From: Nereocystis luetkeana
Taxonomy: Eukaryota; Sar; Phaeophyceae; Laminariales; Laminariaceae
DNA length: 64,000 bases
Assembly: GCA_031213475.1 (NCBI GenBank)
Contig: JARUPZ010000008.1
Coordinates: 12,971,393-13,035,392 of the forward strand
Reading direction: 5' to 3'
Shown one piece after another: positions 1,433-56,426 of this stretch (position 1 is its first letter; each line of letters begins with the position of its first letter). A program made the position numbers and the translations under genes. Below the pieces are notes generated by a model. That model searched no databases. It saw only the letters and a list, made by a program, of their open reading frames with translations, and was not told the origin of the DNA.

Positions 1433-1441
1433 TACCAGGTA
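1433..1441. other. TACCAGGTA scar (absent from copy B)
   Basis: Copy A reads TATA-CCAGGTA-TATTG where copy B (12188-12200) reads TATATATAATG. Removing 7 bp (CCAGGTA) restores the copy B sequence with one mismatch. This is a gain of CCAGG plus a duplicated TA and is read as a transposon excision scar. Confidence 0.6.
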
Positions 1442-1859
1442 TATTGTTTGCGATGGGCACAAACTAGGGAGGGTAGTATGAGAGTTCAGTTTGAGCACAT
1501 CGGAAATTCACACGGAATACCGGGTATCTTGATTGATAGTTTGCATGACCCTGGTTGCTCCCCCCACAGGCAATATTTGAGGTGTACACAGGCCATGCGG
1601 GTGATATCCTCTTCCAACTATCACCAAGCTATAAATGTTTCGTCCGATAGGATGAAGAGTCACCAGATTCCCTCATTCGAGTACCCTTGCTTTTCCCCTC
1701 TTTCGCTGTCGATGATTTGCCGAATCTCTGCTTGGAGACTGCACTGCGTTGATTGCATCAGGTGGACGGTTGACGAGAGGACCAAATCACGACCGGGCAT
1801 GGTGAACGGAGAAAATGAGGTGGATGCTCGACGGTCGTGATGTGTGGTTGTAGTGCTAC

Positions 1860-1867
1860 TATTAATA
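1860..1867. other. TATTAATA scar (absent from copy B)
   Basis: Copy A has an extra TTAATA after a TA, compared with copy B near 12610. After removal, the two copies align with one or two substitutions. Confidence 0.5.
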
Positions 1868-2214
1868 TTATATTGGGTAACGGTTGGTATTGATAGTGTT
1901 TTTGTTGTGTCTTTTTTATTATTTTGCTCGGTACTGCTATGTAAAAAGCGCAGGTAGTGGTTCGTTTTTGCTTGAAATTGTGTGTGGCTTCTTCCAGTCA
2001 GATCTTGCCGACACAAGTTCTACCACCATCTTGACTGTTGAGCGATCAACCATCTTGATCTCTCACATATCTGCAGGATGGTATCATATGACGACTTGGG
2101 TATATAATACCGCAGCCGTATACTCAGCTGACAGGTGTCTCACTTGGTACCAGGAATCTGGTATTACGCATATATACCTGATGCTCACGTATGATAAGTT
2201 TCCTTTGGAGTTAA

Positions 2215-2291
2215 CCCCTTTAAGTCCCACGTATTTGGGGGCAAGCTACTTGGAATTAGTGTCGGGATCAGTTTTTCAGTTCTGCATGAGT
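2215..2291. repeat. possible diverged copy of the TTAA palindromic MITE
   Basis: TTAA at 2211-2214 is followed by CCCCTTTAAGTCCCACGT and TTTGGGGGCAAGCTACTTGG, which track the left half of the six better copies at 21-27 kb. A TTAA follows at 2292-2295. The right half is poorly conserved, so this call is tentative. Confidence 0.35.
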
Positions 2292-3131
2292 TAAGAAACT
2301 CGAAAATTTATATTTTTGAGCTTTTAATATTAAGAACCGGCGCACTTTCTCGTGATTTTTCAGTTAAGAAACGAGAAGATTGGTAAATCCGCTGGTAAAG
2401 TTTTTGGGCATGCCCTATTTCATGAAACGAGTCGAATCTCACCGTACAACTCTGGTGTGCTCTATACCCATACCCGGCTTGTAGGACCGCAGTGTGTTGG
2501 TCAATGAGATGTTTGACGCTTTTCTTGAATGTCATTAAATGTGTGCCCACAGAAGAGAGGCTATAGGCTTTGAGTGGTACATGGTTATTGAATGACAAGC
2601 TGGTATGATAGTTGAGGGAATAATATTGATTTGGTATTCGACTGATATGGATGAATTTCAGAGTCTTTCATTTTTGAGATTATATTGAGATTGATACTGA
2701 AATCTGGAAGGCCAATCTACTATTTTTCCTATTTCATGCAGTTGAACCTACCATAGGGAAGGCTGTATTTTGATTACCGGAAAGAGGTTGGAGTAAGGCC
2801 AATATTTTGTTTCACATTGATTGAATTGGTTTGAGTCTGGGTTTTGGAGGTTTTGGTATTTTGACAGCAGGGAGGCAGCTGTTTGGTTCTATAGTGGGTT
2901 TTGGAATTTCTGTTTTTGGGGTGAATACACTGCTACTTGTAGTGTCACGACAAGAGGATTTTTCTGTGTTGGATGAGTGTGGATCTGGTACGGAATAGGC
3001 ACAATTATCCTGACAGTGTGCTACGTCTAGGAAGGCTGTCGGACATGGTCGTATGATGTAGCCGTACACATGTCTGATACGTGTCATTGTCGTATTAGTT
3101 CAAGTGTCTTGAGTAACTGTTGTGTCACTCC

Positions 3132-3378
3132 AATATATCTACGGAGATTGCGGCGGGATTAGTGTTTCCCCGAGGAGTTGCATAAAATTGTGTTTGACCT
3201 GCTTTCAGGGGTCTTCTAGAGTCTAGGGGAACGTGGCCCCCTTGCTCTCAGTACACTATTAATTGTCCACCAGTACACTAAAATAATTGATACCTTTCTA
3301 CTCCTTCTACCCACCGCCTCATGGCAAGCCCCACCCACGCATCACCCAAGCGTACCCGGTGCTCGAATTGATCCCTTA
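3132..3378 (+). repeat. 3' LTR remnant of copia copy A
   Basis: Matches the LTR of copy B from its AATATATCTACGG section to the terminal CCCTTA. A short block containing TATTAATT (near 3250-3265) is present here and absent from copy B's LTRs. The first part of the LTR is not recognisable. Confidence 0.8.
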
Positions 3379-4244
3379 CATGTAATCTACTCGCCGTGAT
3401 CGTCCAAAGGGGTTTTCACAGACACTACCTAAAAGCGAGACCTCTGTGGCCTTTCACAGAAACACAGCTTCGAAACTTGTCATATGTATTCCGTATATTC
3501 TGAAGACCGTACAATCTCCCTTAAAGGCGCACGGCCTACAACGATGATGACCTGCAATACACTTTTTGACGTTGCAGCTATGACATATGGTTAGCTAGGG
3601 TAGGGACGATTGCTGTACTGGTTCTCAATAGGCCCAAGATGAGTCCGAGCGTAGGGAAAATTCGTGCAATAATCAACTTTAATTGATATAGCGTCACGCC
3701 AAGGTGTTCAGAACATAGCTATGCCCCACAAACCCTCTCAAGAAGTGTCGAAGTACTTGCTTTTGACTGGTATTGTGGCGAAATGGCCTTTTAGCGTGTA
3801 CATCTGGTACTCGTACATTGACTGGGTAAGCGAGCCTCTGTCTTCACCAGGCAGGTGCTTTGATCCTAACGCTCATTGAACTTCGGGTCATCACACGACG
3901 TTTCGAGCGTTCTTGCGGCTGCGTTGAATCCCATTGTAATGCTCATGGCCGGCTCCCAAGCTGAACACACCCCTCGAGTACCTCTGCACCTAAATTTCCG
4001 ATAGTTATTCTTCACCCTTACTCACCGCATATGTTGGCATCGTTGAGCCTGTTGTCCCTGCATTCACAAGCGTCAGATGCAGCCTCGCCAGGTAGCACCG
4101 ACTCCTCGTCAAGCGCTAGGGTAGGATCATCGACGAAATGTCACGACAAGGTCATCACTAGCTGTGAGACAACGAATAGAATAGCTGTCTTGAGACAATG
4201 AATAGCAAATAGGTGGGATCAAAACTAAACGTCAACTTGAAAAG
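3379..4244. other. unassigned DNA
   Basis: I see no long open frame, repeat or RNA signature here. It lies just downstream of the small secreted-peptide gene (minus strand) and may hold its 3' region. Confidence 0.4.
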
Positions 4245-4722
4245 CTATTTCACAAACACGACAGCAGACAGACCACAATCATTTCTCGTCACTTGTCCTT
4301 TGAAGGCCCCGGGACGTTGTTGCATGTGAGTTACGTCATTGCGTGGAATCTCCATTACGGCAAGATAACGCTTTGCGCAATCTGGAGAAAACCAACACCA
4401 TCGTAGGCAAACGTTCATGGGAAGGATTTCCCGATGCCATTTAAACACCTATCAAGCACATTGTCTACTGACTGTCAATGAGATACGGCTCGAATGTCGG
4501 CCGAAACTCTTTCCCACTCCAACAAACTGTTCGAGTGATATCGCGCGCAACATATGACAATTTTCCTCGTGGAAACGGTTTGACGACGTGGGGTTCCACG
4601 CCACACTCACCTGAGCACTGCGCGTTTGCCATGCAACACTTGTTTTCCGGGCATTCCGAGTTGAAAACACATCCTGCCACCGCACGCAGCACCACGATAA
4701 GGAAATACATGCAGAGACGCAA
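4245..4722 (-). CDS. small secreted cysteine-rich peptide, two predicted exons, 82 aa
   Basis: Exon 1 (4722-4611) begins MRLCMYFLIVVLRAVAG, a good signal peptide, and runs straight into a Cys cluster of spacing C-x5-C-x4-CC-x5-C. It ends at a textbook 5' splice site, CAG|GTGAGT. A pyrimidine-rich acceptor (GGTTTTCTCCAG) lies 229 bp on, and exon 2 (4381-4245) keeps the frame (phase 1, Asp-Cys at the junction) and ends with a stop. The predicted mature peptide has seven Cys. The six clustered ones, with a central CC pair, have the spacing of disulfide-knot peptides, but this is a pattern match and not a family assignment. If the intron is not removed, the frame reads 85 aa and ends at 4465. Its role is unknown; export through the secretory route is inferred. 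It is the best host-gene candidate in the window. Confidence 0.5.
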
Positions 4723-7700
4723 AATGTATAGGGGCGAATATGATGCACGTTTGCGTTACAAGAGCTATCAAAGGCATTTCGGCGAAACCAAAAAAAAAAA
4801 CCCTTGTTCGCCATCCGTCGTTCTGGGCCAGATCGCTGGGTAACGGCCATCTCGAAGACAGCAGCTGTAGCTGACATTCATATTCGAGGACGTGCGTGAT
4901 GGCGGTCGCCGCATGGCTACAGGCACAGACGTTTAAAACATCTAGTTACTTACGTCGATGTATGTATACCCGTATACGCAGTAGGCAGGCGTGCACTTGA
5001 GGAAAGCAAGAGTAGCACCAAATCATTGCTGCTCGGGCATTCTTTCAGTGTGAGGACTCATAGCAAGCGAGATACATAATTACACCACTTCAGGCCCCAC
5101 CCTTGGGTGTACCGAATCCGGTATGTTTATCAAAACTCCAGTATAATATTATGCATGGCGGCGGGCGTATGTGCTACCAGGTATCTATTTTAGGACTTGT
5201 CCAATACATGCATGCTACTATTCAATATTAATACTAGACCGGGAGAAATACGTATATCGTTGGCAGGTATATTGATTGGGGTTGTACTACGACCACCCGA
5301 GACGTGGCTCCTCATGGACGAATAAGCCCAAATCAAAACTATGTAATATGCTGCTGCCCAAAGCCGTGGGCTATCTAGGGGTATCGGCGCCACATACCGT
5401 ACATAGTTCTGAATACCAATTATAGCTACGCATCGAGTTCCACATGGGTAGGTATACCTGTAACCAAGCGAGATACGATCGCATCCTCGAATTACATGGG
5501 TGGCAACTGCGAATAAGTCAACTTCAACTGGGAAACCTATGCAATCGCACTCTATTGTCTCCCTGTTGATGTCTGCGGACGGATCTCTACTTAACCCGAA
5601 AGCGTGTCACAGATACTACAGTAGAAGCCACACGCATTTACACAAGAAACACCGCAACAAGCTCAGAACACCTAGGCAACAGAGGCTGCGTGTATCCAAA
5701 TCACAACAGGCACGCAGACATGACGGAACATCGCTGATGAGGTGCCATGCGAAGTAGAACGTTACAATATGTTTTCACTCCCCGCTATATTTCTGCGGCA
5801 GTAGCGATGTGCTTCACGTTCGGGTACGGGTCGTCGCGATCCCAGTGACATCAACACAACCACAGAAAAGGGTGGGGTCCACTTTTGACTCCCAAGTGTC
5901 GAGATGGCTCTTACACATGCAGCCAATAGCTTAGCCATGACATCCAAGGGGCATTGAACTTCATCGGGTACACACTCTTCGGGCAAATTCCATACCTTGT
6001 GCCAAGATCGTGGGTAGTACCGTCAGGATCAAGAGGCCTATCTGTCGTAGACTGGCTTGAACCATCTTCGTACTCCGATAAATCTCGGTTCCAGCACAGC
6101 TTTGACGGAGGACCAAGGGCAGAGGCGGTGAAGGGCAGGATGTACAAATACATACATATAACTCGTATATAAAGTTGTAGTCAGTATGGTCGTGGACACG
6201 TGGTGCAGGCCAAATACGGGCAATGGGAAGGTGTGCGTGTACCAATAATTGCGAGCGTAAAAGATTTCCCCTCGGAGTGGTAAGAAACGATTAAACCAAA
6301 GAAGCCTATATAGTGTGTTACAAGGTACCTGGTTTTACTTTTCAAGTCACAGCAGGCATGATAAAGTCCAAACCTATATGCGCGAACAAAGCCTCGGCTC
6401 TTTAGTACAATAGCAAGAAAGGTTTAGTGCGGGTGACCCAAGAGACATGGTACCGTATCTTTATTACTTCACAGATATGGATGCACCAGACAAGTCGAAA
6501 GTTGGCACACAAGAGAGGTAGACTTGGGGAATGGGTTTCCTTTGGTTGCCGAGGTTTTCTTTTTTCGGGAAAGCTGTGAGTGATCAATGTTCAAGATCCT
6601 GCTGCACGTTGTCGGATGGCAAGAGAAATAATAATATTGCATCAACAAATAGTACCAGTATGTACTAGATATAACTTTGTGCGAACGATAGCAGGGATGA
6701 TACTGTTGTGCTCTTGTGTCCCGAAGATACCTGATGGTGCCTATGTATATAGCCCACGGACTAGTCACAGCAACCACATCAGATACGGTAAAGAAAGACG
6801 TGCGAATCCTAGGTTTTTTCTTCCCAGACGGGGGGGGGGGTTGTACATGAATCAAGACGAACAATACTATTAAAAAAACCTCTTGCAGTTTTTACGAACG
6901 ATAAAAGAAGATTCATATTTTTTATAGAAACAATTATTATAATGCGCCATACTGCTTGCAGTTGATTCTTGAATTTGTTGTTCTGCGTTGGCTCGCCCTT
7001 CACCGTCGCCCACATTGCCGCTGTTTTCGTGGCGTAGATATATTCATCAAACACCGCGCAGATTGCTGTAGTACTGCTACTGCTGGTGTACTCACAGTTG
7101 CGTCGGATATGGTGGCCAACGGTGCTCCTCTGTGCCTCGTGTACCTTTATTGGTTCGTCTCTACCACCAGGTAGAGTATATGTTTAATAGGACACGTTCA
7201 ATTCCCCGTAGTATTTTTAACACGTTCAATTCCTAGTACTTTTATAGTCGACAATGCTTGCAGAAAGTATGGACATCACTATCGGCATTTATTTTTATGA
7301 ACCTAAAATGATAGGAAGCAATCAATATCCACCAGCAACGAAAACGATAACCCAACAACGATAGGGGTGTGTCTCCGCACTTGTCTTCATTTCTTGGAAG
7401 AGGGGGATCAGTTCTCCAGGGAGGGGCAGATAGACAGTCCCCAGTACGAAGGCAAATAAATATCTATACGGTCCCCTTGGCTTTCTCGAGTGACAAACTG
7501 CGAGGAAAGGCAAGAGGACCACAGCCAAAAATCTGGGCGGGGCTGTCGGAGCAATATACGGATTACTGACGACGCCCGTCGTACGATAAAAACACAATAA
7601 CCCACCCCATTCCGGGGGGATATGTTACATAGATAGGACATACGGTACGAACAACACGCCATACCAGGTATATTTGGCTATTTTTACCAACTCTCTTTGG

Positions 7701-8233
7701 TCCTATTTGCTATGGAGCCCCGCAATAGTCATACGGAAATGCTAGCCGAGTCGTACCGACCGCGCGGTACAAAATGCTTACTGGTACGTAGCTATCTATG
7801 TAGAAAGACACTGGAAGGGTTGAAGAGAGCGTGGGGAGCCACCTTGGTGGCTGCCCGGTATGCACGTAGAAACGTGCTCTGATTTTTTTGTGTATCTTTC
7901 ATGCAGTTGCGGTCTTTCTATTAATAGTAACTACTGCTGCTGTGGCTGCAAAACAGCTCGTTGTCGGTCTGGGGAAATCGCTTCTCCCCGGTAACGTCGT
8001 TTCTAATTGTCAGTGTTAAACAAATAAGTGCCCCACTACAATCATATTGGGTCGTTTTGAGGGTTCTGTTGAGTAAGATAATTACATATTTTTGAAATAC
8101 GGCAATATATCCGTCCGCGTTGTGAGAGATACAATGGCTGAATTGAAACATCGCACATCCAATTCGATAACAGCAAGCCAAACCAACATGAATAACACCA
8201 GGTATGTTTTTGAAAATATTTTTCTTCGTAGTA
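4723..8233. other. mostly unassigned DNA with scattered short scars
   Basis: Open frames are short and show no recognisable family. TACCAGGTA occurs at 5175-5183 and 7672-7680; near matches occur at 6326, 7165 and 8196. TATTAATA occurs at 5226-5233 and 7919-7926. A poly-G run lies near 6830-6840. No RNA gene is seen. Confidence 0.4.
5961..6065 (-). other. candidate signal-peptide exon
   Basis: A minus-strand ATG at 6065 opens a frame reading MVQASLRQIGLLILTVLPTI then LAQ, which has the charge and hydrophobic pattern of a signal peptide. It is followed by AAG|GTATGG, a possible 5' splice site. A different frame just beyond (5986-5762) includes a Cys-containing segment (PEECVPDEVQC). No convincing acceptor was found, so no gene model is offered. 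Confidence 0.2.
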
Positions 8234-8868
8234 TATTCTAATCGAGGAGTTTTTTCCCCCCAAATTTTCGACTTTGTTTTCGCGCAATTTTTTAATCTCC
8301 CATATTTTCCTGATTTTTTCTCCCCAAATATTGGAATGTTAACGAACTTGATCTTTTCGGTTCTGGAAAATTTCACGAATATAATAGTGACAGAACGCCT
8401 CCGTATATTGATACATATCTCCTCAATTATTTCCCAACTTTGGAAATTAACAGACAAAATTTAAATCGGAAAAATGGGAACGAAGCCAAAAATGAGAACC
8501 AAGCCGTATCTCCAGAACCATGTGGTGTATCAGAGAACCAAAATGATCCTGCGAAACCCCTTGGCCAGCCCTGTGAGAGGAGCTCGTCAGAACGGTCATG
8601 CTCCATCTCGTGCCTTCGGGTGGGCGCAAAAAGCGATATACGCTGGCTCTATTGTGATTTCTCTAGATGCTGGCTACCGCGGCGATGCCGAGGGCTTCCA
8701 GCCTGAGAGGCAGCTCATTCGAAAGCTGCTGTACAGCCCCACAGGACTGTCAACTTTTTTTCTTGGAGTTGTACACAATTGGTTTGCTTTCTAAGAAAAA
8801 CCGTCCGTTCCCATTTTTCCGTTTTGTCTGTTAATTACGGAAAAAACGCTTTCCGATAAGAATAAACC
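8234..8868. mobile_element. TA-flanked MITE (AGGGTCATTCTTATCGG family), holding a nested element
   Basis: The interior matches the 234-bp copy at 55075-55308, including ATATTGGAATGTTAACGAAC and GACAGAACGCCTCCGTATAT. The right end reads CGATAAGAATAAACC then TA; the left end is more diverged (TATTCTAATCG after TA). Without the 380-bp insert at 8451-8830 the element is about 250 bp. It has no coding capacity, so a non-autonomous DNA transposon is the natural reading. Confidence 0.7.
8451..8830. mobile_element. TTAA-flanked 380-bp inverted-repeat element, nested
   Basis: TTAA flanks both ends (8447-8450 and 8831-8834). The ends are inverted repeats: CAGACAAAA plus CGGAAAAATGGGAACG on the left, interrupted by a 7-base TTTAAAT, and CGTTCCCATTTTTCCG plus TTTTGTCTG on the right. 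The other copies of the host MITE lack it (GGAAATTATGGAAAAAACG), which confirms an insertion. TTAA targets are typical of piggyBac-like elements. It contains a 106-aa open frame (8474-8794) with no family I know, possibly chance or captured host sequence. Confidence 0.75.
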
Positions 8869-9313
8869 TAGCGAGAGTAATGACGTTCTGGAAGTTTCGT
8901 ACAATCAATATATTCTACTACTACTGTGTCATGTAGAGTCAAAATCTTTCAAGACCAAAACATTCAAAGCGTCGCTACTCGCTCGTCGGTTTGCGTACAA
9001 TCGAAAACCAAGCTCTAGTTGATTAGATTGACACTGCGGTGCAAAGCAGATCACGAGCCGGTGACACAAAACACGTAAGAGTCTTTCACCTTTGGGCCTC
9101 AACCCATTACGGTATTTCCGATTCAGGAACGTAGAACTCAAATTCGAAGTACAAGAGTGACTGCAGTACGAAAAGCGTTGAAACAACCGATACACCGAAC
9201 CAGCCAACCGTAGGATACCCACGGTACCACATCAACGTTCACCACACATAATAACAATGACACTGATTTGGCGTTCGGAGTTTATTGAGAATGCCAACTA
9301 TTAATACTGGTCT
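8869..9313. other. unassigned DNA
   Basis: Nothing recognised apart from TATTAATA at 9299-9306, just before the inverted-repeat element. Confidence 0.4.
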
Positions 9314-9626
9314 GGTATTGCTGGGGTTTTTATTGTCCTTTTTCGCGACCTGCCGTGGCAACATCTGCGGCAAAACCTTCCACGGACCCCCACGGCATGT
9401 AATGGAAAACCAACTCTAATCCTAACCCTAACCTATTGGTGCCATGGAGGTAGCCCTGACATGCCGTGGGATTGCCATGGGGTGCCGTGGCGGTTGCCGC
9501 TGGAGTTACCATCGTACAACCTTATCACGCTGGGCATTCCCCACGCGGTGCCGTGGAATCCTATGCGACGCCATGGGATGCCATGGTGTGCCATGAGTGG
9601 TACCATGACAGGGCCCCAGCAATACC
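9314..9626. repeat. inverted-repeat-bounded element rich in GCCATGG/GCCGTGG
   Basis: A perfect 13-bp inverted repeat, GGTATTGCTGGGG (9314-9326) and CCCCAGCAATACC (9614-9626), encloses a stretch in which GCCATGG, GCCGTGG and related motifs recur many times. A short telomere-like run, CCTAACCCTAACC, lies near 9421-9434. No target duplication is evident. It is probably a small non-autonomous element. Confidence 0.45.
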
Positions 9627-10505
9627 TTAATAGCGTAGAACCCTGCTTTGATGTTCACCAGTCCGACAAAAAATATGAGCCACTTTTGCGGTAGTCCTAC
9701 GATTACTTGAGATTGAAGACTTGGAAACAGACGGCCGCAGTTCGATTCCTGGCATGACCTCGATTTCCCCTTTTTTTTACACAGCTTTTTTTCGTTTTTT
9801 CGTTTTTTTTTTGTAAATAAATGTCGACACAATAACCAAGTAGCACTCCGACCAAAAACGTTATTTCCGCCGGTTGAGAACAATGATGTATGAGGAGTGT
9901 CGCAACGAGCAGTTCTTGAGATAGGTAAAAGTACCCAAAATACCATAGTAAAAACTGATGAAAAAAAACTCAATTTTTCGGCCTGGGGGAGCTCAGTAAA
10001 GCCCAGAAAAAATCCTGACAGGGAAAATTGCGCGAAATCCCAGGAATCAGGGAGGGGATGATATCTATCTAAACATCCCCGTGTCAGCGCAGGGTTTTTT
10101 TTAGCCCTTTGGCCTATTGTATGGTGATCCAAACATATACGATTGTTAGGTTGACGATAACTATACCCCATGGCCTCCATTTGGTATGATGTACCAGGTA
10201 TGTGGCTAATATTTGTTGTATTCCGAAAGTGGCTTATAATTTTTGTCGGAATGGTATCTTTTTTTCAGATGTAATGCTACACCGTGCTGTACACCTTTCC
10301 GTGACCTGATGAGGATGCATACCGCGACTATTAACATTAATAGTGCGTTCCTTACCGCAGCAGTAGAAGTAGATGTCTATGTTGCCGTCGAATTGAGAAG
10401 TGAGTGATAAATTGTTTTCGAGGATACAGCAGCTTACCAAGTTGTAGTTCAGAGGTGTAAATAGTATCAGTAGCAGTGTCGTAGAATGCAGGAACCACGA
10501 GCGAG
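9627..10505. other. unassigned DNA
   Basis: The stretch 9680-9760 resembles the 3' half of a tRNA (CAGTTCGATTCCTGG) but does not fold convincingly. TACCAGGTA lies at 10192-10200. The sequence CTATTAACATTAATAG near 10328 may be an altered scar. The remainder is the target DNA of the copia B insertion. Confidence 0.35.
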
Positions 10506-10510
10506 TACAT

Positions 10511-10811: not shown

Positions 10812-10870
10812 CGCTAGCGTTAGCCTCTGACATATGGTCACGGTCGCTCGGGCACGGGGTGCAGCGCACC

Positions 10871-11812
10871 ATGGTGGGTTTTGTGGTTTTAGGGGAGGAG
10901 CTTCCTTGGATGACAAGGATCCTCGATCAGGAGAGGCGACACCGCGAGGGAGCGGATATCGGGTTGGGGACATGGACTCCTGAAGAATGGAAGGAGCTAC
11001 AGGAAACAGCAGCAGCCCCATCAGCAGCAGCAGCAGCAGCAGCAGCATCAGCGGCGGCAGCGGCAGCAGCAGCAAAGCAGCAGAAGCAGGAGCAGGAGAA
11101 GCGTCACGGTAGGCCGGGCGCAGGATGCCGCATGGATTTATCATCTTTCCACTTGCTTACCGTCAAGGAGCAACAAGAAGCCATTGAAAAACATGTTGAC
11201 CAGCAGCTGAGAGCTAGGAGGGGTTACGCAACCGCCGCGAATACACGAGAGGAGGCAAGGAAAAAGACAGAGAACACGCACCAAGCCCAGGACAATGGTT
11301 CGAGGAGCTGCGACAACTCGTCACCCGCCGACCCAGTGCTATCGAGAGCAAAAAGTGCGGCCCAACAGCAACAGCAGCAGCAACAACAAGTACGGGCGTC
11401 TACGTACGTCAAGAAAGGCGACGAGGAGGAGTTGATGGATATTACTGAGGAGGAGGAGTCGGATGAGGAGGAGCAGCATGGTTTAAAGCGTGAAGTGGTA
11501 CCGGTGGATGGCATGGGGATGGTGAGGGAGACGGAACTGGAGGAGTCGGATGAGGAGGAGCAGCACGGTTTGGAACGTGAGGGGGTACCAATTGATGGCA
11601 TGGGTCTGGTGGGGGAGATTGGTGTGATGGAAGGAGCTGTCGGGTGTTCGGAGAACATTGACGAGGACGACGGTGCGCCGAATGGAAGCGCTTGGGAGCG
11701 AGTTGGGATCGGTACGGGTTGGTCATGCAGCGGCACCTTCGTGGGGTGGGGGTGTGAGGTGGCCGGTCGGCGTCCGACTCGGCTACGGCGGGCGCGCGTG
11801 CGAGAAAAGTGA
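10871..11812 (+). CDS. accessory ORF of copia copy B, 313 aa, function unknown
   Basis: Homologous over its whole length to the ORF at 11-1054, with the same ATG in ACCATGG, about 60 bp after the 5' LTR. It has a shorter Ala tract, the same poly-Gln run and two rather than three 29-residue acidic repeats, so the protein varies in length by repeat number while the frame stays open. No known domain is seen. The region after it (11813-12630) holds pyrimidine-rich stretches ending in CAG (for example TTTGTTTTGCAG before 11960), which resemble intron ends. Captured host gene sequence is therefore possible, and a diverged gag is the alternative. Confidence 0.55.
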   Translation: MVGFVVLGEELPWMTRILDQERRHREGADIGLGTWTPEEWKELQETAAAPSAAAAAAAASAAAAAAAAKQQKQEQEKRHGRPGAGCRMDLSSFHLLTVKEQQEAIEKHVDQQLRARRGYATAANTREEARKKTENTHQAQDNGSRSCDNSSPADPVLSRAKSAAQQQQQQQQQVRASTYVKKGDEEELMDITEEEESDEEEQHGLKREVVPVDGMGMVRETELEESDEEEQHGLEREGVPIDGMGLVGEIGVMEGAVGCSENIDEDDGAPNGSAWERVGIGTGWSCSGTFVGWGCEVAGRRPTRLRRARVREK

Positions 11813-21060: not shown

Positions 21061-21135
21061 CACGGTAGGATGAGACAGCAGTGGCTCTCCAAGAATCGGG
21101 AAACACGTCCGCATCTCTACAGTCTGTAGTGGGCA

Positions 21136-21223
21136 CCCTTTAGAACCGCAGTCCCGTTTTGGGGACAAACTACTTGAAATTTGACTGGTTTGTCCCCAAA
21201 AGGGGACTGCGGTTCGGAAAGGG
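21136..21223. mobile_element. palindromic TTAA MITE, copy 1
   Basis: 88 bp, CCCTTTAGAACCGCAGTCCC ... GGACTGCGGTTC...GGG, followed by TTAA (21224-21227). The left flank is GGCA, not TTAA. The two arms pair over nearly their whole length. Confidence 0.75.
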
Positions 21224-21401
21224 TTAAGAAGCAATTTATGAAGAAAATGGGCACAAATCTCGCGAATAATAACAACCTTTTTCGGTTGAAAAACACAGCT
21301 CGAAAGTGAGACCAACCCTAAATCCCATAATAATGTACAGATATATATCCCAAGTTGGAAAAACGAAACAACGGTGAGCCTGGACAACAGATTCACGTTA
21401 A

Positions 21402-23093: not shown

Positions 23094-24189
23094 TAAAAAA
23101 CAAAAACAACATCCACAGTAGTACGGAGAATAGCGAAGACAATTAATTCCTGTCTTCGTGCTGGATACGGCGAGCTCAACATTCACCGGCCAGCAACCCA
23201 GATCGATCGATTAAACGAGAGATTGACGACAAAACAAGAAAAAACGGAAAACCCGTACAAACAAAAAATTGAAGGATCTGAAGAAACACATCCACGCCTG
23301 AGGCGAAGTATACCCCGTAAAATATAAATAGAGGCAAGAATAAGACGAAAACCAAACAAAAGTCCTGACCGAATCGAAATCAAAACTTATATAAATGGGA
23401 CAAAGACCGCACAAATGTCCGAACCGAATCGAAATCAAAACGCGTACCAGGTTAACCGCTCCAGAACCTCAGTTAACTTGTAGGAACAACTTACTCGAAA
23501 TTTGACTGGTTGGCCCCCAAAACGGGACGGGGTTTCAAAAGGGTTAACCGACGAGCAGGATCCGATGCAGAGGTGGGCGTGGGTCCCGACCGCAACTGGA
23601 AACATTGTCAGCTGTATTTCACCTCCGTAATATATCGTAACGGCGCCCACACCACGGCAATATATATCATCGCGACTCGATATGCCCACATGGATAACGT
23701 GAAACAGAAATATAAACATTACAGTAGTAGTAGGAGGAAACTGGAAAACGGTCGTGAACTAAATCACACAAAGATAGTAAACCTACAAATCGTACGACCC
23801 CGACAAGTCGCTGCACGTACGAAAAACCACGTTTCAAAAAAAGCTTCCAGGCGAAGGAAGTCGTGGGAACGCCCCGTCCTGCATGCCGAGGTGGTAGTAC
23901 CGGTGGTATATTGCTGCCAAGCCACTCCTGGAGATAGATGGGGCATGCCCCCCAAACCAAAACAGGTCAAAATAACCTACAACAAAAAGTACGCGAAAAC
24001 ACCACCACCTTGCCTCGCCTCCCCTACTACTTACAGTAGTATCATGGCTGTATGCGACTTGCGTAGCATGCAACAGAAGTACGAGCACCACCTTGACATC
24101 AAGAACACACAGTAGTAAGTAGATGGAATGAAGAAAATATCGCATGCAAAACATGCACTACAAAATTTTCCTGCAAAAAAAAAACATTA
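23094..24189. other. unassigned DNA with one MITE
   Basis: Apart from the TTAA MITE at 23456-23543 I recognise nothing here. The 201-aa frame at 23510-24115 starts inside the MITE and has no known family. Confidence 0.35.
23456..23543. mobile_element. palindromic TTAA MITE, copy 3
   Basis: 88 bp between TTAA at 23452-23455 and 23544-23547, the most diverged of the six. A TACCAGG stands directly before the left TTAA. Confidence 0.65.
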
Positions 24190-24718
24190 GCCGCACCCAG
24201 CAGTTTGCATTATATGAGTACAGCAGCAGTTACTGTAGCACACACAGGTTCCACTCTCGAGTCCGCCTCACGCGTTGCTGCCCTCACTGCCGATTGTGTG
24301 GCTTTGGTCAATCGCGTGCTCTCATACTGCACGTTTGCTCACCCACTCCTTACTCCCCTAGACGGTACCCATATCAGAGTCGTACCGCAGCTTCCGATGT
24401 TTTGCCTTTCAACCGTGCCACCTGGCCACAAACCGTCCGGCTGCGTCGAGGGCGCCTTCTCCGCTCCAGTGTTTTTAATAGTGGGCCAAAGCGTGGTCTC
24501 AACTTCGAACATAAACGGAGAGTGGTGCATTCACGCCATAATGGCTCCAGGTCGCCCACTCCCTACTACTGTTGTACGCTTCCATTCTACTGTTGTACGC
24601 TTCCATTCCAAGCCTTCGATTGCGTGCCATGATTTCGGACTCTCTCCACCGATCATCGTTGCGAATGTCCTCCAACTTGGTAATGATTAATTAAATTGCC
24701 ACGATACGGGCCAATTAA

Positions 24719-24807
24719 CCTTTTTAGAACCGCAGTCCCGTTTTTGGGACAAATTACTCAGAATTTGATAAGGCTGTCCTCAAAACGGGACTGCGGTTCC
24801 AAAGCGG
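24719..24807. mobile_element. palindromic TTAA MITE, copy 4
   Basis: 89 bp between TTAA at 24715-24718 and 24808-24811. The right TTAA also serves as the left TTAA of copy 5. Confidence 0.8.
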
Positions 24808-24811
24808 TTAA

Positions 24812-24900
24812 CCCCTTTAGAACCGCAGTCCCGTTTTGGGGACAAACCACTTGAAATTTGAGTAGTTTGTCCCAAAAACGGAACTGCGGCTCTAAAAGGG
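24812..24900. mobile_element. palindromic TTAA MITE, copy 5
   Basis: 89 bp between TTAA at 24808-24811 and 24901-24904; arms CCCCTTTAGAACCGCAGTCC / GGCTCTAAAAGGG. Confidence 0.8.
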
Positions 24901-25130
24901 TTAAAAGCTATCTCGTTGATTCTACTCGAGGGCCTCCGCGCATTAGAGGAAGACGAGGTGAGCACGTCGTCGAGGCTGAATTCCAACGACTCGCACGGAG
25001 CAAAACTTTGTGCGCCGTTCGGAGCTTTGTAGAGTGATTCGCGTGGGTCGACGTCACACCCGTACAACGAGGTCTGAAACACCTCGGTCTCAACTATACA
25101 TTCGTTCAGACCACGCGATTTTGTACAGCA

Positions 25131-26059
25131 GTGTCCCTCCGGGACTACCGAAGACCTGCAAAAATACTGGGTTGGCTGGATGTCGAAGTGCTGCGTGTAA
25201 AATAAAGTTGAAGAACATACACGCACATATATGTACCAGGTCTGTACGTGAATACACACGGGAAATAGAGCCAACGTACACACATACATACCTGGTGTAT
25301 CGTGGCTTGTCGCGAGAGGTAACCTTGTAGATTCCCTGACCTGTGGTGTCGCGGTAACGCACTTCGTGAGATTGTCCCTTGTTGTCTCGTTGCGATTGTA
25401 TCAAGGATGGCAGTCGATGGGTGTGCTGTGTCGATGACGGCGGTCGGGTAGTTGGCTGTGTCGATATGAGCGACGACTCTCTTATGGAAGTACTATCAAT
25501 AATCCTACTGTACGTCGTCAGCACCGGTTACGATGGCTGTGTTTCTTCTTCACCTACCTTTTGAACCTTAAACCGGTATTTCTACCCGTCTATATCGATG
25601 CCGAAGGGTAGACAAAAAGTATGAATGTTCAAATATGAAGAGCACCCAAACCCATACTTTTCGTAAGTACACACACGGGACGCAACAGAACTGACATACG
25701 TACATGTATATAATACCCGGTATATCGGAGGGAATATAAAGTAATCGTATATTCCTTCACCACGCCGTAACTACTGAACTTGGGTCGTCGTCACTTGTCG
25801 AAGCTGGTGTCTATCTTCTTTGCTTCTCTGGTGGCGGTTGGTGTTGATCGTTGCGTCCACAAAAGCGGTCGGGTGGTTGTGTCGACGTGAGCGGTGACTT
25901 CCGGCAGCACCACGTACCCTTGTTGTGGTATGTCGCGAGCACAATGTCATGCTGCGGTGAACGTGCGTTTTCATATTGTTTTTCTCAGAAATAATGGTTT
26001 CATGTATGCATACATGTGAAGAATACGCACACACGACAGGTACATACATACATACATGC
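25131..26059. other. unassigned DNA with a LINE-tail scrap
   Basis: 25556-25620 resembles the LINE terminus (ACCTTAAACCGGTATTTC, TACCCGTC). CATA/CACA-rich stretches lie near 25230-25290 and 26040-26060. No gene. Confidence 0.35.
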
Positions 26060-26871: not shown

Positions 26872-26880
26872 TACCAGGTA
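26872..26880. other. TACCAGGTA scar inside LINE
   Basis: The related LINE (59.4 kb, minus) has CAACAGACACGTGCGTACGA, with a single TA, where this copy has ...ATACGTACCAGGTAGACC. Flanking similarity is moderate. Confidence 0.45.
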
Positions 26881-27309
26881 GACCGACAAAACGCCGAGAG
26901 TTCGACCGGCATCTCTTTATATCCGATGGGAAGTGTCGTGAACGAGTAGTCGCTAGGGTCATCTCCACTCTAAACCAGCCTATCCAGCCCCGTAATACGT
27001 CTGGTATGGTTGAGTGTTTCACTACGGCTGTTATTGATGCGGTCGAAAAAGAGGTACCACCCCCTGCACGTCGCCACCGCAGACATGGATGGTGTGAGTC
27101 TGCCGAAACCTTGGCCGCATTCATACCAGCATGGACAGCGAGGGAGGATGCACGACAATTCTTGCGTGCCCACCCCCGGGACAGAACCGCGTGGAAGACC
27201 CTAAGATCTTGCTTGCCGCAGGACTGCATGCGTACTTCGAAATATACCTTGCCGAAACCGAACGACTCCTAGCGAACAACGACCAGAGAGGCTTTTACAA
27301 GAACCTTGA

Positions 27310-27398
27310 CCCTTTTAGAACCGCAGTCCCGTTTTGGGGACAATTCACTCAAATTTCGAGTAGTTTGTCCCCAAAACGGAACTGGGGTTCTAAAGGGG
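27310..27398. mobile_element. palindromic TTAA MITE, copy 6, inside a LINE
   Basis: 89 bp; TTGA (27306-27309, an altered TTAA) at the left and TTAA (27399-27402) at the right. The related LINE at 58.93 kb reads on from GFYKHL to TVGLDGRKARSEQ with no insert, while here GFYKNL and the corresponding TVGLEGTRARSEQ are separated by the MITE. Confidence 0.85.
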
Positions 27399-27675
27399 TT
27401 AACGGTAGGATTGGAAGGGACTAGAGCGAGGAGCGAACAGTTCATTAGGGACGAGGATGGCACGCTCTTACGGGATAAGGTGCGAATTCGTGAACGATGG
27501 GCGGGGTTTTACCACAAACTCTTGAACACGAAGTCGCTGAAACTCGACCCCACGATCATGGACCTCTTTCTTGCCACCGCGACCGCCTAGACTGTCACTT
27601 AAAGATGAACCATATATAGACGAGATGACAAATTGAGGGGATGTCGAATTGGAGAGCTGTCGGGCCACGAACTCC

Positions 27676-27807
27676 TGTGTGTGTGTGTCTGTTCTTCACA
27701 TTAAACCGTTCTTTCTACCCGTCGACATCCAGCACAACCAGTGTCCGTGCCGATTCTCCAATCCTAGAAGAGATACAAGTTCTGTGGTCACAAAGCTACG
27801 CCACAGG
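27676..27807 (-). repeat. inverted LINE 3' tail within the LINE
   Basis: (GT)n, then TTCTTCACATTAAACCG and TACCCGTCGACATCCAGC up to AAGCTACGCCACAG: a LINE terminus on the strand opposite to its host, lying exactly where the polymerase core is missing. Confidence 0.75.
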
Positions 27808-29449: not shown

Positions 29450-29457
29450 TATTAATA
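29450..29457. other. TATTAATA scar inside LINE 3' region
   Basis: Here the strand reads GTATCTATTAATAGGATGATG. Two related copies (29715 and 26275, read in reverse) have GTATCTAGTATGATG and GTATCTAGTATGCTG. The gain is TTAATA, that is TTAA plus a second TA. Confidence 0.6.
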
Positions 29458-35463: not shown

Positions 35464-35547
35464 CCACTTAACTTGTACCAGGTATCTGTCTAAAATTGAA
35501 GAGTCGGCAGGGAGACTGGTTGTGCTGGATGTCGACGAGTAGAAATA
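35464..35547 (+). repeat. LINE 3' end split by a 4-kb insertion (continues at 39515)
   Basis: The LINE terminus reads AACTTG...GGATGTCGACGAGTAGAAATA here and resumes at 39515 with TAACGGTTCAATGTGAAG and AACACACACA. An unsplit end at 54774-54790 reads GGGTAGAAATAACGGTTTAA. Confidence 0.8.
35476..35484. other. TACCAGGTA scar in LINE 3' end
   Basis: Related ends (for example 29549-29560) read AACTTGTATCTC; this one reads AACTTGTACCAGGTATCTG. The gain is exactly CCAGG plus TA. Confidence 0.65.
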
Positions 35548-36480
35548 CCCAGGGATCTTTACGGTTATCCGTCCGTGCACGGTGCGGTTTTTTCAAATCG
35601 AAATTCTTACGGTCCGGTTCGGTGCGGTTTTAGAAACTCGTACATCTAACGGTGCGGTTCGGGTTTTTATGAATTCCTACGGTGCGGTTCGGTGCGGTTT
35701 TCCTATTTCGTAAAAGCTACGGTGCGGTGCGGTGCGGTTTTCAGGGGAGGCAAAAAATCCTAATGTGCGGTGCGGTGCCGCACCGAACCGATAGGTAACA
35801 CCGCACAAAAAAGAACTCTGGAAAAACCCAGGGATCGCTACGGTTATCTACGTATCCGTGCACGGAGCGGTTTTTCAAATAGAAAATCTTACGGTCCGGT
35901 TCGGTGCGGTTTTACACAAACAATCGGAAATCGTAGGGTGCGGCTCTGTGCGGTTTTCAGGTATTATTGTAAAATCCTACGGTGCGGTTCGGTTTTGAGA
36001 TATATCCTATACGGTGCGGTTTGGTGTGGTTTTCAAAAATCGGAAATCCTACGGTGCGGTTCGGTGCGGTTTTCAGATACTACTGTGAATCCCACGGTTC
36101 GGTTCTATTTTGTGATTAATCCTACGGCGCGGTTCGGTGCGGATTTCAATAATCGGAAATCCTACGATGCGGTCCGGTGCGGTTTTAGAAAGTCGTAAAT
36201 ATTACGGTGCGAATCGGTTTGGTGATAGATCATACTGTCCGGTTCTGTTTGGTACCCCGTTGAATCGGTTTTCCTACGGTGCGGTTCCAATCCCCGCAGG
36301 GAAAACCGCACAACACATGTTTTTCGCTATGGTACACCGTATATATAAACCGTACTGAACCGCGGTTTCGTACGGTTCTCAGGCTATTATCGGGGCACTC
36401 TAACGAAACCGCTGTTTCTCCACGTTCCACCGTATGAATGAACCGTACAAAACCACGGTTTCGTACGGTTTCTGACGCTT
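35548..36480 (+). repeat. degenerate GGTGCGGTTCGGTGCGGTTTT tandem array, left
   Basis: Units of about 35-45 bp, each a GGTGCGGTT(C) doublet followed by a variable TTTCA...GGAAATCCTAC spacer. A larger repeat of about 280 bp is visible (35548 and 35827 starts). The pattern turns to ACCGTA...CCGCGG near 36320-36470. Confidence 0.8.
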
Positions 36481-39039: not shown

Positions 39040-39505
39040 CGTTTGCCACGAAACCGCGCAGAAACCGTCATGACCCGTGCGAAACCGTGACCCTATTGCA
39101 TCGTTGCGAGGCCGATGGAACGGCGGTTTTCTACGGTTTCAAGTCAACTGCACCGTTATTTAACCGATCTCACGCTTTTCGGCACCGCATCTTGACGCAC
39201 ACGCTGCGGTGCGGTTTCGAAGGCATTCCTAGGGTGCGGTTCGGTTCGGTTTTAAGAAATCAGGAATCGCACGGTGCGGTTCGGGGCGGTTTTCAGATAT
39301 TGTGAATCCTACGGCGCGGTTCGGGGCTGTGATATATCCTACGGTGCGGTTCGGTGAGGTTTTCAGATGTCGGGAACCCGTCGGTGCGGTTCCGCTATAT
39401 GAAATCCTACGGTCCGCTCCGGCGCGGTTTTCATATTTCGTATTCAACCTACGGTGAGCAGCACCGAACCGGACCGAACCGATGGGAAAAACCGCATCGT
39501 GAAGA
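39040..39505 (+). repeat. degenerate GGTGCGGTT array, right
   Basis: Same unit as the left array; ends with the inverted form GCACCGAACCGGACCGAACC, then GGGAAAAACCGCATCGTGAAG. Confidence 0.75.
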
Positions 39506-47504: not shown

Positions 47505-47528
47505 TAGAAGATCACCGGTTCACTAGTG

Positions 47529-49500: not shown

Positions 49501-49730
49501 TTCATCACCCCGCGCTACAAGCCTCTCCTTAATTTTCGTAGGGCAATCGTACACATCGGTTTTCCAATCAAAAACCCACATTTCATTCATGTAGTTATCC
49601 ACTGATTGATACCCCGGCACAAACGTCCCCGCATCCAGCAACCCGTAAAAACTCCCGCCACATAGAATCCTCCCAAAGATGAGCGTGCTCCAACCGTATG
49701 GCTTCCCTGTGGCTTCGTGTTACCTTGAGG

Positions 49731-52263: not shown

Positions 52264-53135
52264 GAGTAGATGCAGAGCACTCTGGGGGGATGAAGATGCT
52301 CGGGGAGAAGGCGACGAGGAACAGGACAGGGCAAGGCCGGGGAGGTATGATATTGGTGGGACGGCGGCGGCGGTGGTTGATGTTGTTCGTAGATATAGGG
52401 CGCGGTCTGCTGCTGGTGCGGTGCCGGCGGTGGTGGTGGCGCCTGGTACTGCTGCGAAGCTGGTAGCTGATACTGCTTCGAAGGTGATGGCTGGTACTGC
52501 TGCAGCTCTTCCTCGTAGTAGTAGTATTCACCGTAGTCGTCGTAGTAGTAGCTGCCTTCGGCGGCGGCGTCGGTAGTGTCAGTACCATAGGCGTCACCAT
52601 AGGCGTCACCATAGGCGGCGGCAGCGGCAGTGGAGGCGGCGGAAGCGGAGACGGCGGCGACGGTGGCAACGTTTGCTTGACCGTACGAGTATGGCCCCGG
52701 CGGCTGCCGGCCAGGTGTTGCAGACGAGACGTGGGGGGCCCCGCCGGGGGCGGTACGCCCGGGGACAGGTGGCGCGGGTCCGGGGGGGTGAGGGTGCCCA
52801 GGGGTATCCACTCGCCACGCACAATACTGATGCACGTGCTTCAACTCGTTGCAGTTCTGCCATCGCTAGCCAAGGTCCGCCCCATGCACTGGCGGCTGAT
52901 TACCAAACGGGCTGGGAAGGTTCGGTGGGTGTAGGGAGTAGTCACTGCCGCCGGGATGGGGGGGGGGGATGATAGCAAGCCTCTCCCTCTACCTCCGACC
53001 GGTTGCCCACGACCGCCCACATACCTTCCTCTGCCTCCCCTGCCGCCGGGCCTCTTCCTCCAGGGCCCCACGGCTGTGATGTTTCGCTCCGACCACCACC
53101 ACCGCGGCCGCTGACGTGCTGTTGTTGCTGGTGTG

Positions 53136-53174
<39 letters not shown>

Positions 53175-54291
53175 GTGGCAGCTATTGTATTTGCTCCTGC
53201 TGCTGCAGCTGCCGCTGATGTCGGTGCTGTTGGTGTTGCTGCTGCTGAGGCTGATGATGTTGCTGCTCCTGCTGTTGATGTTGCTGCTGCTATCCGCCCC
53301 TATTGTCGTTTCTCCTACTCCTGCCTCGTCCGCCGCGTCCTCTTCTCCCGCCATGTCGAACACCCCCGTTGCCCCGGCCAGACCAATCGGGAGCAACGAG
53401 GGCGTGTCCCGTCCCAGTCCTCTTCTCCCTCTCCCTCGCCATCTCGCTCTCGCCATGGCCACTGAGCACCTCGTCGTCAAGGACTTTTCATGCCAACTCT
53501 GCGTTCGTGAGTTAAAAGCTCTTTTGCACCCCAATCGTGGGTGAAAGGTTACGGTACAAATGTTGGATAGTACCTACATTAGGGAATACCACCCAATGGA
53601 AAGCAAGCCGGCTTTAAGAATACTACCTCTCGCAAAGTACTCGTAGGGGGGTCCGTTCTCTTTCATTCTCAGGCTTTACCACGCTTGAGTCGGCCTGGCC
53701 GTCTCGGCAGCAGATTGAGGAGCATAAAAAAAGTCGTGGAAGATTTTCCATCCCTCACTTGGGCTACCAGCTGCCAAAATAAGGTTCAGTATGGCCAAGT
53801 ATGTAATCTGGTTGATCAGTATCCTCCATGCTACGCGTGCCCTCCGCCCCAAACTCTCTATTGAGGGCCTCACTGTTGGACCCCGCCAATCATATTTAAT
53901 AGGACCATCCGTGCCTATTGTTTGTAGGCAACCCTTCTCCCCCAAAATGTGCTATCATCTGACCCTCAAACACCATAAACTCTCTGCTGTACCTCCTCCC
54001 CGTTCTTGAAAATACCATCAAACACTTTGGGACTACTGCTGCGGCAAATACACAACGTGCCTGGCGGGAGGCCTGCAGCCCATCCCTGCAGTTGAGCTCG
54101 AGCGTGGTCCTGCGAGAATTGCTCTGGGACTGGACGGTGCTCCTCCTAGGCTTGTTCTCCTGGGCTTGCTCTCTTTCCCTGTCTCTTCTTGCTTCTTCCT
54201 CGCGGCTGGTGGCACGATCTTCGTGCTGAACTTTGACCAGTCCTGTGGCGTAGCTAGCGAAATTCGCTTGAATCGCATTCCGAGCTTCCAC
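52221..54291 (-). pseudogene. gag-region remnants of copia D
   Basis: Pro/Tyr/Gln-rich and Gly/Asn/Ser-rich low-complexity segments with CTG/CAG runs (53110-53290). A conserved-looking gag N-terminal part lies near 54291-53676 (NAIQANFASYATGLVKVQ; RILINQITYLAILNLILAAG in another frame). Fossil. Confidence 0.6.
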
Positions 54292-54378
54292 AGGAAGGCC
54301 CGCGATGATCGACGGGTCCGTCTTGCAACCTTTACACGAGTTATCTTTGATATATCAATCGTACTAGCAGAATCAATG

Positions 54379-54612
54379 ACCTCGTTAAATCAATCACCTC
54401 GGTTACGAGGGGCAGTGGGTGAACACCCGGGAGTTTGCCATGAGGCCAGAGAGAAGATGCTGAACCTGGTGTATATTAGAAACCACCGAAGATCAATTCA
54501 ACGAAGGGAAGTATTCCTTCGTCCCATGATCCCATAAAGGTGTCCAGATGATATTCATACCAAAACCCATTCCGGAAATTTTAGATTCCGCAGCATTTTT
54601 CCAGTTAGTTAC
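54379..54612 (-). repeat. 5' LTR of copia element D (approximate limits)
   Basis: Partner of 40391-40620. Confidence 0.65.
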
Positions 54613-54689
54613 ACATTACGCAGCTCGCAAAGTTGAGTATCAACTATATATCAGTCGAGCTCACAGCTGACGTATTTCATAATCTCTGT

Positions 54690-54795
54690 GACGTAGGTTT
54701 GTCACCACATAAGTTGTATTCTTCTAGGATTGCAGAATCGTCTCGGACGCTGGTTGTGCTGGATGTCGACGGGTAGAAATAACGGTTTAAGGTAA
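54690..54795 (+). repeat. LINE 3' terminus fragment
   Basis: GTGACGTAGG...CTTCTAGGATTGCAGAATCG...GGATGTCGACGGGTAGAAATAACGG. Useful as the empty-site reference for the 35548 insertion. Confidence 0.7.
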
Positions 54796-55074
54796 AGAAC
54801 GAACATATACAAGTACATCTGTATACTTATACATGCGTACGCTCATTAAACTTTTTCGCCCTTGGGGTGTACGATATGATGGGTACTCCGTACTCGTTAG
54901 TTTTACGTACAGCATCGTGAACGCAGGAGGCAGTCCGCCTGCGTAAACTCGCCTCGTGGCGGTCCCTGGTTCCGTATTGAAACACGTTTGCGCCGAGCAG
55001 GCCGTTCTGCATGGATCGTCCACAGGCTTCAAAGCTGGCAACAAGGGGCAGGCGCCAGCTCTTAGGTTCATTCT

Positions 55075-55308
55075 TATCGGAGAGCGTTTTTTCCATAATT
55101 TCCAAAATTAGAATAAAAATCGAGATATGTATCAATATACGGAGGCGTTCTGTCTCTTTTCGTGAAATTATCCAGAACCAAAAGTATCAAGTTCGTTAAC
55201 ATTCCAATATTTAGAAGAAACAAAACAGGAAAATATGGAAGATTGAAAAATTGCGCGAAACAAATGTCGAAAAATTGGACTAAACAGCTCTCCGATAAGA
55301 ATGACCCT
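55075..55308. mobile_element. TA-flanked MITE, AGGGTCATTCTTATCGGAGAGC family, reference copy
   Basis: 234 bp between TA at 55073-55074 and 55309-55310. Inverted ends (left GGTTCATTCTTATCGGAGAG, right CTCTCCGATAAGAATGACCCT) of about 22 bp. No coding capacity. Relatives at 8234, 61172 and 63820. Confidence 0.85.
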
Positions 55309-55510
55309 TACACTACTGGCGCGCCCGCTGTGGCGAATACAACGAAGCCTGTGACTACTACTCTCTGCAGATCTAAGTTAAGCCCGTTTCGCCTACACCC
55401 TAAAAAAAACAAAACAATTCTGATTTGGAGGCCGCACGCTGAATCTTCAGGGGGAAAAACACTATTTGTGACTTCTTATTGCCAGACACACCTGACGTGT
55501 GATTTTTACT

Positions 55511-55665
55511 TGCATTATGTTGTTGTTCTCACATTAACTCTCTGACGAAGGAGTCCGTGGTCACACAAAGGTGCTGGAGCCCTGGGAAGATCCGAAAAAC
55601 AAAACAATCGAAAATTCGGCTGCCTCAAAATACACGAGACGAAGAAAACGCACACGAGCTAAAAC
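55511..55665 (-). repeat. LINE 3' terminus, (AAC)n tail
   Basis: Reverse copy of 20185-20338: GTTGTTGTTCTCACATTAAC, TCTCTGACGAAGGAGTCCGT, then TTCGGCTGCCTCAAAATACA. Confidence 0.65.
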
Positions 55666-56426
55666 CAATGTGCAAACTGAACTAACATGACCGCGGGTAT
55701 ATCCTCTCAACTACCTGGTATAAAATAGAGTACCCCCGTTCCCACCACTAACCAACTCGTGGCCGCTGATTACAGCGGATGCTGTCTGAAGTGCTGCCTG
55801 CACCCTACGAAACGTACGGTAGTCGTGAAAACGAAAGAGGAACACACCTGCCTGCGATCTGGAGTGCTGTCAGAGTGAAGACTCGCGGATATGCAGTGAA
55901 AAAAGGAGCAATCGAACCTTACTCCCACACGAATATCAACGATCGCCATCTCTTCCTGGACTGTATGACACATAAAGGTGCAGCACAGTTATGATACCAC
56001 GCCCCTGATAATTGCGTGGGTTATTCCCTATGAAGGGTATACAACTCGTTAAACTACAAAGACCAGTGACGACGTTAATACCACGTAAGTACCGGTAGAT
56101 ACTGTTCTGCCTCGTGAAAAACAATACCAGGAAAAGACAAACTATGACTGCTTCTCCCGTGGTGATAGTGTGCGAGCAGATCATGGGTCTCCGTGCACCG
56201 TCTTCCTGCCGCGCTTCATGGCCGCCTCACCGCCTTGGTCCAATCCACCCGCCCCTTTGCGCGTGCACTTGTTGTCATTCCCTTCTATTAAGAGTCGATT
56301 CCCTCTCTCCGTCATCCTGAAAAACAAAATGCTCCTCGCACTTATGTAGGTATTGTTTACTCTAATTGAATAGGTGTACCTGATTTTGGACGAAACCCAA
56401 AATAATTATCTACCAGGTACGTTGTA
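55666..56426. other. unassigned DNA
   Basis: TACCTGGTA at 55712-55720 and TACCAGGTA at 56411-56419, the latter just before a LINE tail. Short frames only. Confidence 0.35.

Follow-up and report, generated by a model that had tools for sequence, protein, structure and literature searches.

Which process has scattered the nine-letter palindrome TACCWGGTA (W being A or T) through the genome of the brown alga Nereocystis luetkeana? The question is raised by a 64,000-nt stretch of contig JARUPZ010000008.1 (positions 12,971,393 to 13,035,392; hereafter the window), in which reverse transcriptases of the copia type and of the long interspersed nuclear element (LINE) type are present. Its home assembly comprises 465 Mb in 1,987 contigs. 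The motif arises by insertion of 7 bp at a single TA. It very probably represents the footprint, or scar, left by excision of a TA-targeting cut-and-paste DNA transposon, the ends of which probably read CCAG(G).

Such an element would insert at a TA, doubling it, and its excision would leave a few end bases as a 3′ overhang on each flank. As in Sleeping Beauty, overhangs of CCAGG would pair except for an A:A (or T:T) mismatch at the center, which repair would convert to either A or T, giving TACCWGGTA. Such excisions would number on the order of a hundred thousand and would extend to recent copies, since the 7-bp insertion distinguishes retroelement copies that are 97–99% identical. We infer the agency of a transposase, the end sequence, the overhang length, and the survival of few intact elements; a five-base stagger would be one of several geometries that fit.

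TACCWGGTA is a seven-base insertion at single TA dinucleotides

The window contains eight exact matches to TACCWGGTA, while dinucleotide shuffles predict 0.28 and none of 100 shuffles reached eight. With 18 one-mismatch matches, exact and one-mismatch forms together number 26 against 9.7 expected. The eight exact copies listed in a preliminary description of the window all exist, although one lies at 7662 and not at 7672, and the six one-mismatch forms named there are found among the 18.

Genome-wide, the motif occupies 182,395 places, approximately one per 2.5 kb. The reversed pattern, a control that differs from TACCWGGTA in dinucleotide make-up, occupies 1,744, a ratio of about 105, and the genome-wide excess that the preliminary description anticipated is thus borne out. 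In a sample of about 220 kb, a trinucleotide model predicts 2.4 copies and 74 are found, approximately 31-fold. The center is A or T at those 182,395 places versus C or G at 10,882 (control for the C/G center, 1,899). Among nine-letter odd palindromes in the first sample (224.5 kb), the runner-up has 15 copies versus 78 for the motif. One sampled locus (L008) overlaps another (L007) and is excluded from the trinucleotide-model, flank-preference, one-mismatch, non-scar-end, and minor-variant counts. It is kept in the palindrome ranking, the indel list, and the paralogue test, where the approximately 1.2 kb shared with L007 can raise the number of “filled” control sites by a few.

The origin of the motif is revealed by paralogues. 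Each site in the sample was compared with its paralogues there, with members of tandem pairs counted separately, and a site was called empty when at least one copy matched bare TA more closely than the complete motif, ungapped near the site. Out of 93 motif sites, 43 have a paralogue, and with nine unclear cases left out, 21 of the 34 informative sites have an empty-TA paralogue. For the control pattern TA-N5-TA, this holds for 25 of 236 informative sites (of 774 sites, 321 have a paralogue, and 85 of these are unclear), and the difference between motif and control is significant (Fisher p about 2e-10). TA flanks the scar on both sides where the paralogue has one TA, which is the expected TA duplication, observed here indirectly, without an intact insertion. 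Comparison of paralogues in the first sample also yields 203 small indels when binned by position; 23 have a length of 7 bp, and 12 of the 23 are insertions of the motif (one site counted twice).

A palindrome so frequent and so widely spread across the genome could be a fixed functional or highly iterated sequence, e.g., a protein-binding or methylation site, comparable to HIP1 of cyanobacteria, which is likewise a very frequent short palindrome. This explanation is disfavored and scarcely credible, as paralogues without the motif differ from it by exactly the 7 bp inserted at TA and the center is nearly always A or T. In contrast to HIP1, the paralogous state here is a bare TA.

Within the window, the preliminary description had named three sites with a bare TA in a related repeat copy. 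Two of these hold, namely 1433 against copia copy B (98.8% identity) and 35476 against other LINE ends. The third, 26872 against the LINE at 59.4 kb, does not, since the two sequences are too diverged and the gap between them measures only 2 bases. Site 55712 is a further strong paralogue case that had not been named.

Sites 1433 and 55712 also show that either center can occur at one TA. At the copia site 1433, where the window itself has TACCAGGTA, eight of ten other copies (the best ten after the window in the genome match list, and therefore not random) have a bare TA, and two have TACCTGGTA. These two T-centered copies also have a linked base difference in their background; being alike, they may reflect one event. 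At 55712, where the window has TACCTGGTA, five of ten other copies have a bare TA, three have TACCAGGTA, one has TACCTGGTA, and one is unclear; these ten are rows 2–9, 11, and 18 of the match list, the last two hand-picked, and are likewise not random. Each of the two sites requires two events or more, unless a single event was combined with an exact change of the center between A and T.

The scars also decay. One-mismatch derivatives of TACCWGGTA number 90 in the sample versus about 50 expected. This excess is approximately half of the count of 74 intact scars, suggesting that the scars are not old on average.

Target preference and nested scars

The scars retain a preference of their target. 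De-duplication by flank reduces 67 chains of scars in the sample, a tandem pair counting as one chain, to 64 sites with 128 flanks; the analysis of variants keeps 74 single sites. In these flanks, position +6 is T in 50% (background 24%), position +7 is A or T in 79%, and A is avoided at position +1 (6%). The preference is palindromic: when the 74 single scars are oriented by their center, the two sides are alike at all but one of eight positions (p = 0.02).

Scars also lie within the TA of other scars. The nested form TACCWGGTACCWGGTA occurs as 15,917 adjacent pairs genome-wide versus two for the control, which is about six times the 2,581 expected if all TAs were hit uniformly. Part of this excess is expected because the scar fits its own preference, with C at +1, T at +6, and A at +7. 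Among 59 adjacent nested scars listed on the + strand and tallied by eye, 40 share the same center and 19 differ, so that local duplication may account for some tandem scars. The triple-nested motif was not found in viral contigs.

The 15,917 tandem units and the excess of equal centers would also be produced by microsatellite-like slippage or local duplication of the 7-bp unit TACCWGG. For single scars, this explanation is disfavored and can be given next to no weight: 60 of the 67 chains in the sample are single, and paralogues show scars originating where a bare TA stood.

Scar density is uneven along the genome, with 0.68 per kb at C1:210–260 kb and 0.21 per kb in the final 156 kb of the contig that includes the window (C8). 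The terminus of C8 (L017–L018), probably a telomere, consists of TAACCC-type units; about 92 kb separate the end of the window from that of the contig. C1 contains an almost perfect inverted repeat that spans about 5.1 kb (G000 C1:228637 to about 233780, L020–L021). A smaller inverted repeat at approximately C1:218565–220110 has the same scar beside a decayed second one, at mirror positions.

Possible excision geometries and the proposed source element

Different overhangs could result in the same scar. A 4-nt CCAG overhang could pair CAG with CAG and have a single base filled in per side; alternatively, 2-nt CC ends could be filled and joined with an untemplated A. Either would yield TACCWGGTA by the same excision process. 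Minor forms fit this variant. The form TACCGGTA is found 22 times versus 7.4 expected, with both strands of the palindrome counted and hence at 11 places; once, it appears as an extra insertion within a scar, and four paralogue alignments have the first scar alone. Among the sample variants, TACCAGTA exceeds its expectation (16 versus 7.3) while TACCTGTA does not (9 versus 10.6), a weak sign that the end of the source element may read CCAG rather than CCTG. However, these minor forms are few, and the case for overhangs other than CCAGG is evenly balanced.

Several results weigh against excision of a TA-targeting transposon, in addition to the equal centers of nested scars. At 13 of the 34 informative sites, every paralogue carries the scar as well, so that the flank alignment proposed in the preliminary description returns a bare TA in the larger part of cases and solely scar-sharing paralogues in the remainder. 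Sharing is expected of duplicated copies that were already scarred, and it places the number of events below the number of scars. The intact TA-flanked element with CCAGG ends that the preliminary description called for has eluded recognition. No TA-CCWGG element with matching terminal repeats was recognized in the approximately 220 kb sampled. TACCWGG ends that are not part of a scar number 80 in the sample versus 64 expected, little beyond what decayed scars supply. In a scan for TA-flanked inverted repeats (7-base exact end match, 30–6000 bp), candidates starting with CC are solely pairs of scars or lie within large inverted repeats. Genome-wide, two-ended candidates of 26–55 bp, T-continuing ends excluded, show no excess (349 versus 404 in the control); other lengths of a possible miniature inverted-repeat transposable element (MITE) source were covered through the sample alone. 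At the hot-spot TA of site 55712, the exact flank followed by TACCWGG and a base other than T is found at three places in the genome, and none of these candidates is an intact copy: two are decayed scars and one has a 14-bp insert. Finally, the Tc1/mariner-type transposase domain DDE_3 (PF13358) has no match in the 465 Mb (30 candidates scored), in a search whose control matched in 3 of 14 genomes and from which introns or strong divergence could hide matches.

Other transposase domains are less decisive. The mariner Transposase_1 domain (PF01359) has no match in this genome and none in the control genomes. The pogo-like DDE_1 domain has 28 matches, and a pogo-like source for TACCWGGTA is possible. 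Two of these 28 loci were read (L026 and L027) and discarded as sources, since they show no TA-flanked ends matching the scar and look like genes in pieces. Five DDE_1 matches score equally, with three in-frame TAG codons each (G000 C2:7920664, C809, C872, C1099, and C1378), and are perhaps a recently amplified element. A low-copy, highly active element would escape all of the searches made.

Candidates for longer ends were also considered. No shared inner sequence lies behind the non-scar TACCWGG ends among the 62 listed. CCTGGCAY, suggested as a terminal repeat by a few two-ended candidates, fits scars decayed from T to C, a form that is in excess. CCAGGAACC was prompted as a longer end by a single 14-bp insert (L049) and two places among the two-ended candidates, and is not claimed. 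The related count of TACCAGGAACC is 249 per strand versus 96 and 87 in the control; by a rough estimate, decayed nested scars could suffice for it. TACWGTA, a Sleeping Beauty-type scar in form, is found 74 times versus about 30 expected, yet it has an empty paralogue at only 2 of 15 informative sites.

Many scars with TA boundaries and no intact element recognized in the sample are also what programmed DNA elimination in the sequenced tissue would leave, as with the internal eliminated sequences of ciliates. This explanation is highly unlikely. The sharing of scars between paralogues and the excess of one-mismatch forms indicate that scars are inherited and decay, and a MITE associated with another scar type, TATTAATA, is present intact.

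A second scar type, the sites of the window, and known systems

TATTAATA occurs 93,112 times genome-wide versus 10,689 for its control and has its own target preference, in which G, T, A, G follow the TA on both sides. Of 36 sites in the sample, 14 have a paralogue and 9 are informative; 6 of these 9 have an empty-TA paralogue. A family of TA-flanked, inverted-repeat MITEs of about 105 bp with ends TTACGGGGGACCATAGTTAATAGG, represented in the window (Table 1) and at L003 828–932 and L007 1252–1348, is the likely source. Several of its copies lie in CTAC-TA or GTAC-TA contexts. TATTAATA would form from ends starting with TTA, presumably joined via the two bases TA. This second scar type supports the logic by which TACCWGGTA is read as an excision scar. 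One nested pair of TATTAATA is found in the window (18467/18473), and one repeat copy elsewhere (L045) bears both scar types, TATTAATA and TACCTGGTA, a few tens of bases apart.

Table 1. Scars, candidate decayed scars, and MITE member in the window (positions counted from its first base).
Feature	Position	Strand	Observation
TACCAGGTA scar	1433..1441	.	Within copia-type element; copy B in the window has a bare TA at 98.8% identity
TACCAGGTA, presumed scar	5175..5183	.	Exact match; no site-spanning paralogue listed in the sample comparison
TACCAGGTA scar	7662..7670	.	In a decayed 105-bp MITE copy; aligned MITE copies (about 72–75% identity) lack the insert
TACCAGGTA, presumed scar	10192..10200	.	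Exact match; no site-spanning paralogue listed in the sample comparison
TACCAGGTA, presumed scar	26872..26880	.	Exact match; LINE comparison with 59.4 kb unsupported
TACCAGGTA scar at LINE end	35476..35484	.	Kin ends at 27788, 29541, 54704, and L007 (82–88% identity) have TA without insert
TACCTGGTA scar	55712..55720	.	In high-copy repeat, 2,326 first-look candidates genome-wide
TACCAGGTA, presumed scar	56411..56419	.	Exact match; no site-spanning paralogue listed in the sample comparison
TACCTGGTT, one-mismatch, candidate decayed scar	6326..6334	.	Pattern match alone
CACCAGGTA, one-mismatch, candidate decayed scar	7165..7173	.	One-mismatch forms modestly over-represented in the sample
CACCAGGTA, one-mismatch, candidate decayed scar	8196..8204	.	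Pattern match alone
TACCAGGTT, one-mismatch, candidate decayed scar	23445..23453	.	Adjoins TTAACC fold-back element
TACCAGGTC, one-mismatch, candidate decayed scar	25234..25242	.	Pattern match alone
TACCTGGTG, one-mismatch, candidate decayed scar	25289..25297	.	Pattern match alone
TATTAATA, second scar type	1860..1867	.	97.5% identical paralogue has TA without insert
TATTAATA, second scar type	29450..29457	.	TA without insert in four listed paralogue alignments
Further TATTAATA	5226, 7919, 9299, 14804, 17422, 18467, 18473, 31213		
106-bp MITE member, TA-flanked, ends TTACGGGGGAC...GTCCCCCGTAA	28992..29097	.	Flanks CTAC-TA and TA-GTG resemble the TATTAATA preference

Two further kinds of repeat are present in the window. 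Fold-back elements of about 95 bp with ends TTAACC...GGTTAA lie at 21131–21227, 23452–23548, 24715–24904, and 27306–27402, the third being two elements head to tail. A CGGTGCGGTTCGGTGCGGTTTT-like unit forms arrays at 35580–36186 and 39230–39440.

Known elements of the Tc1/mariner type offer partial parallels. Minos, of the Tc1 family, is said to leave four element bases between two TAs; its footprint sequence differs from TACCWGGTA. The terminal repeat of the Mos1 mariner starts with CCAGGT, and its cut is three bases deep. That start resembles the end proposed here, while the Mos1 footprint differs.

According to published accounts, Sleeping Beauty leaves the footprint C(A/T)GTA and Tc1/mariner elements leave 2 or 3 bp 3′ overhangs (PMC3878927), with three nucleotides for Sleeping Beauty (PMC7827188). 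The doubled TA, the presumed end remnant between the TAs, and the A/T ambiguity of the center are shared with TACCWGGTA. In contrast to the C(A/T)G of Sleeping Beauty, five bases stand between the TAs here, for which CC ends joined with an added A may also account, and unlike for Tc1/mariner elements, DDE_3 is without a match in this genome and the element was not found. Because of the DDE_3 result, and because overhang and ends are only inferred, the scar is not assigned to Tc1/mariner, although by analogy its source may work like such an element.

Footprints of Stowaway and plant mariner-like elements are described as 1–4 bp of the ends beside TA duplications, and the TA of an earlier footprint can be the site of a new insertion (PMC1925063); Stowaway-like footprints are ascribed to element-derived overhangs (PMC4561436). 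The Stowaway footprints described there vary in sequence and come from single loci or yeast assays, whereas here one footprint is found 182,395 times and no source MITE was found. The kind of process is thus already known from Tc1/mariner and Stowaway excision footprints. A single five-base footprint at such a scale was not found in a literature search to which subscription papers were mostly closed, and nothing on point was found there on genome-wide footprint counts or on algal mariner or MITE work. Publications containing the letters of the motif look unrelated, among the matches listed and by title and abstract.

The preliminary description is partly supported in its interpretation. Its label of a TA-targeting transposon fits the tests made. 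The epithet unknown is fair in that DDE_3 has no match, but a pogo-like (DDE_1) source is possible. A bolder proposal, offered tentatively and with considerable doubt, is that the transposase lies outside the known Tc1/mariner cut geometry, with 4–5 self-pairing 3′ overhang bases, on the order of a hundred thousand excisions within one eukaryotic lineage, and a very low copy number.

Excision scars in the accessible literature come from single loci, whereas in N. luetkeana one footprint is found per 2.5 kb. These scars recur at the same TA of paralogous copies, keep the signature of their target, and decay with time, such that excision rate, target choice, repair outcome, and age can be measured from one assembly. 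For annotation, so frequent an insertion of 7 bp, which shifts the reading frame, ranks as a major source of small indels here. The gap between the number of scars and that of recognizable elements suggests that the extent to which a transposon has moved may be poorly reflected in its copy number. If the novel cut geometry is true, the scars would serve as a genome-wide clock and excision tag of an undescribed transposon family.

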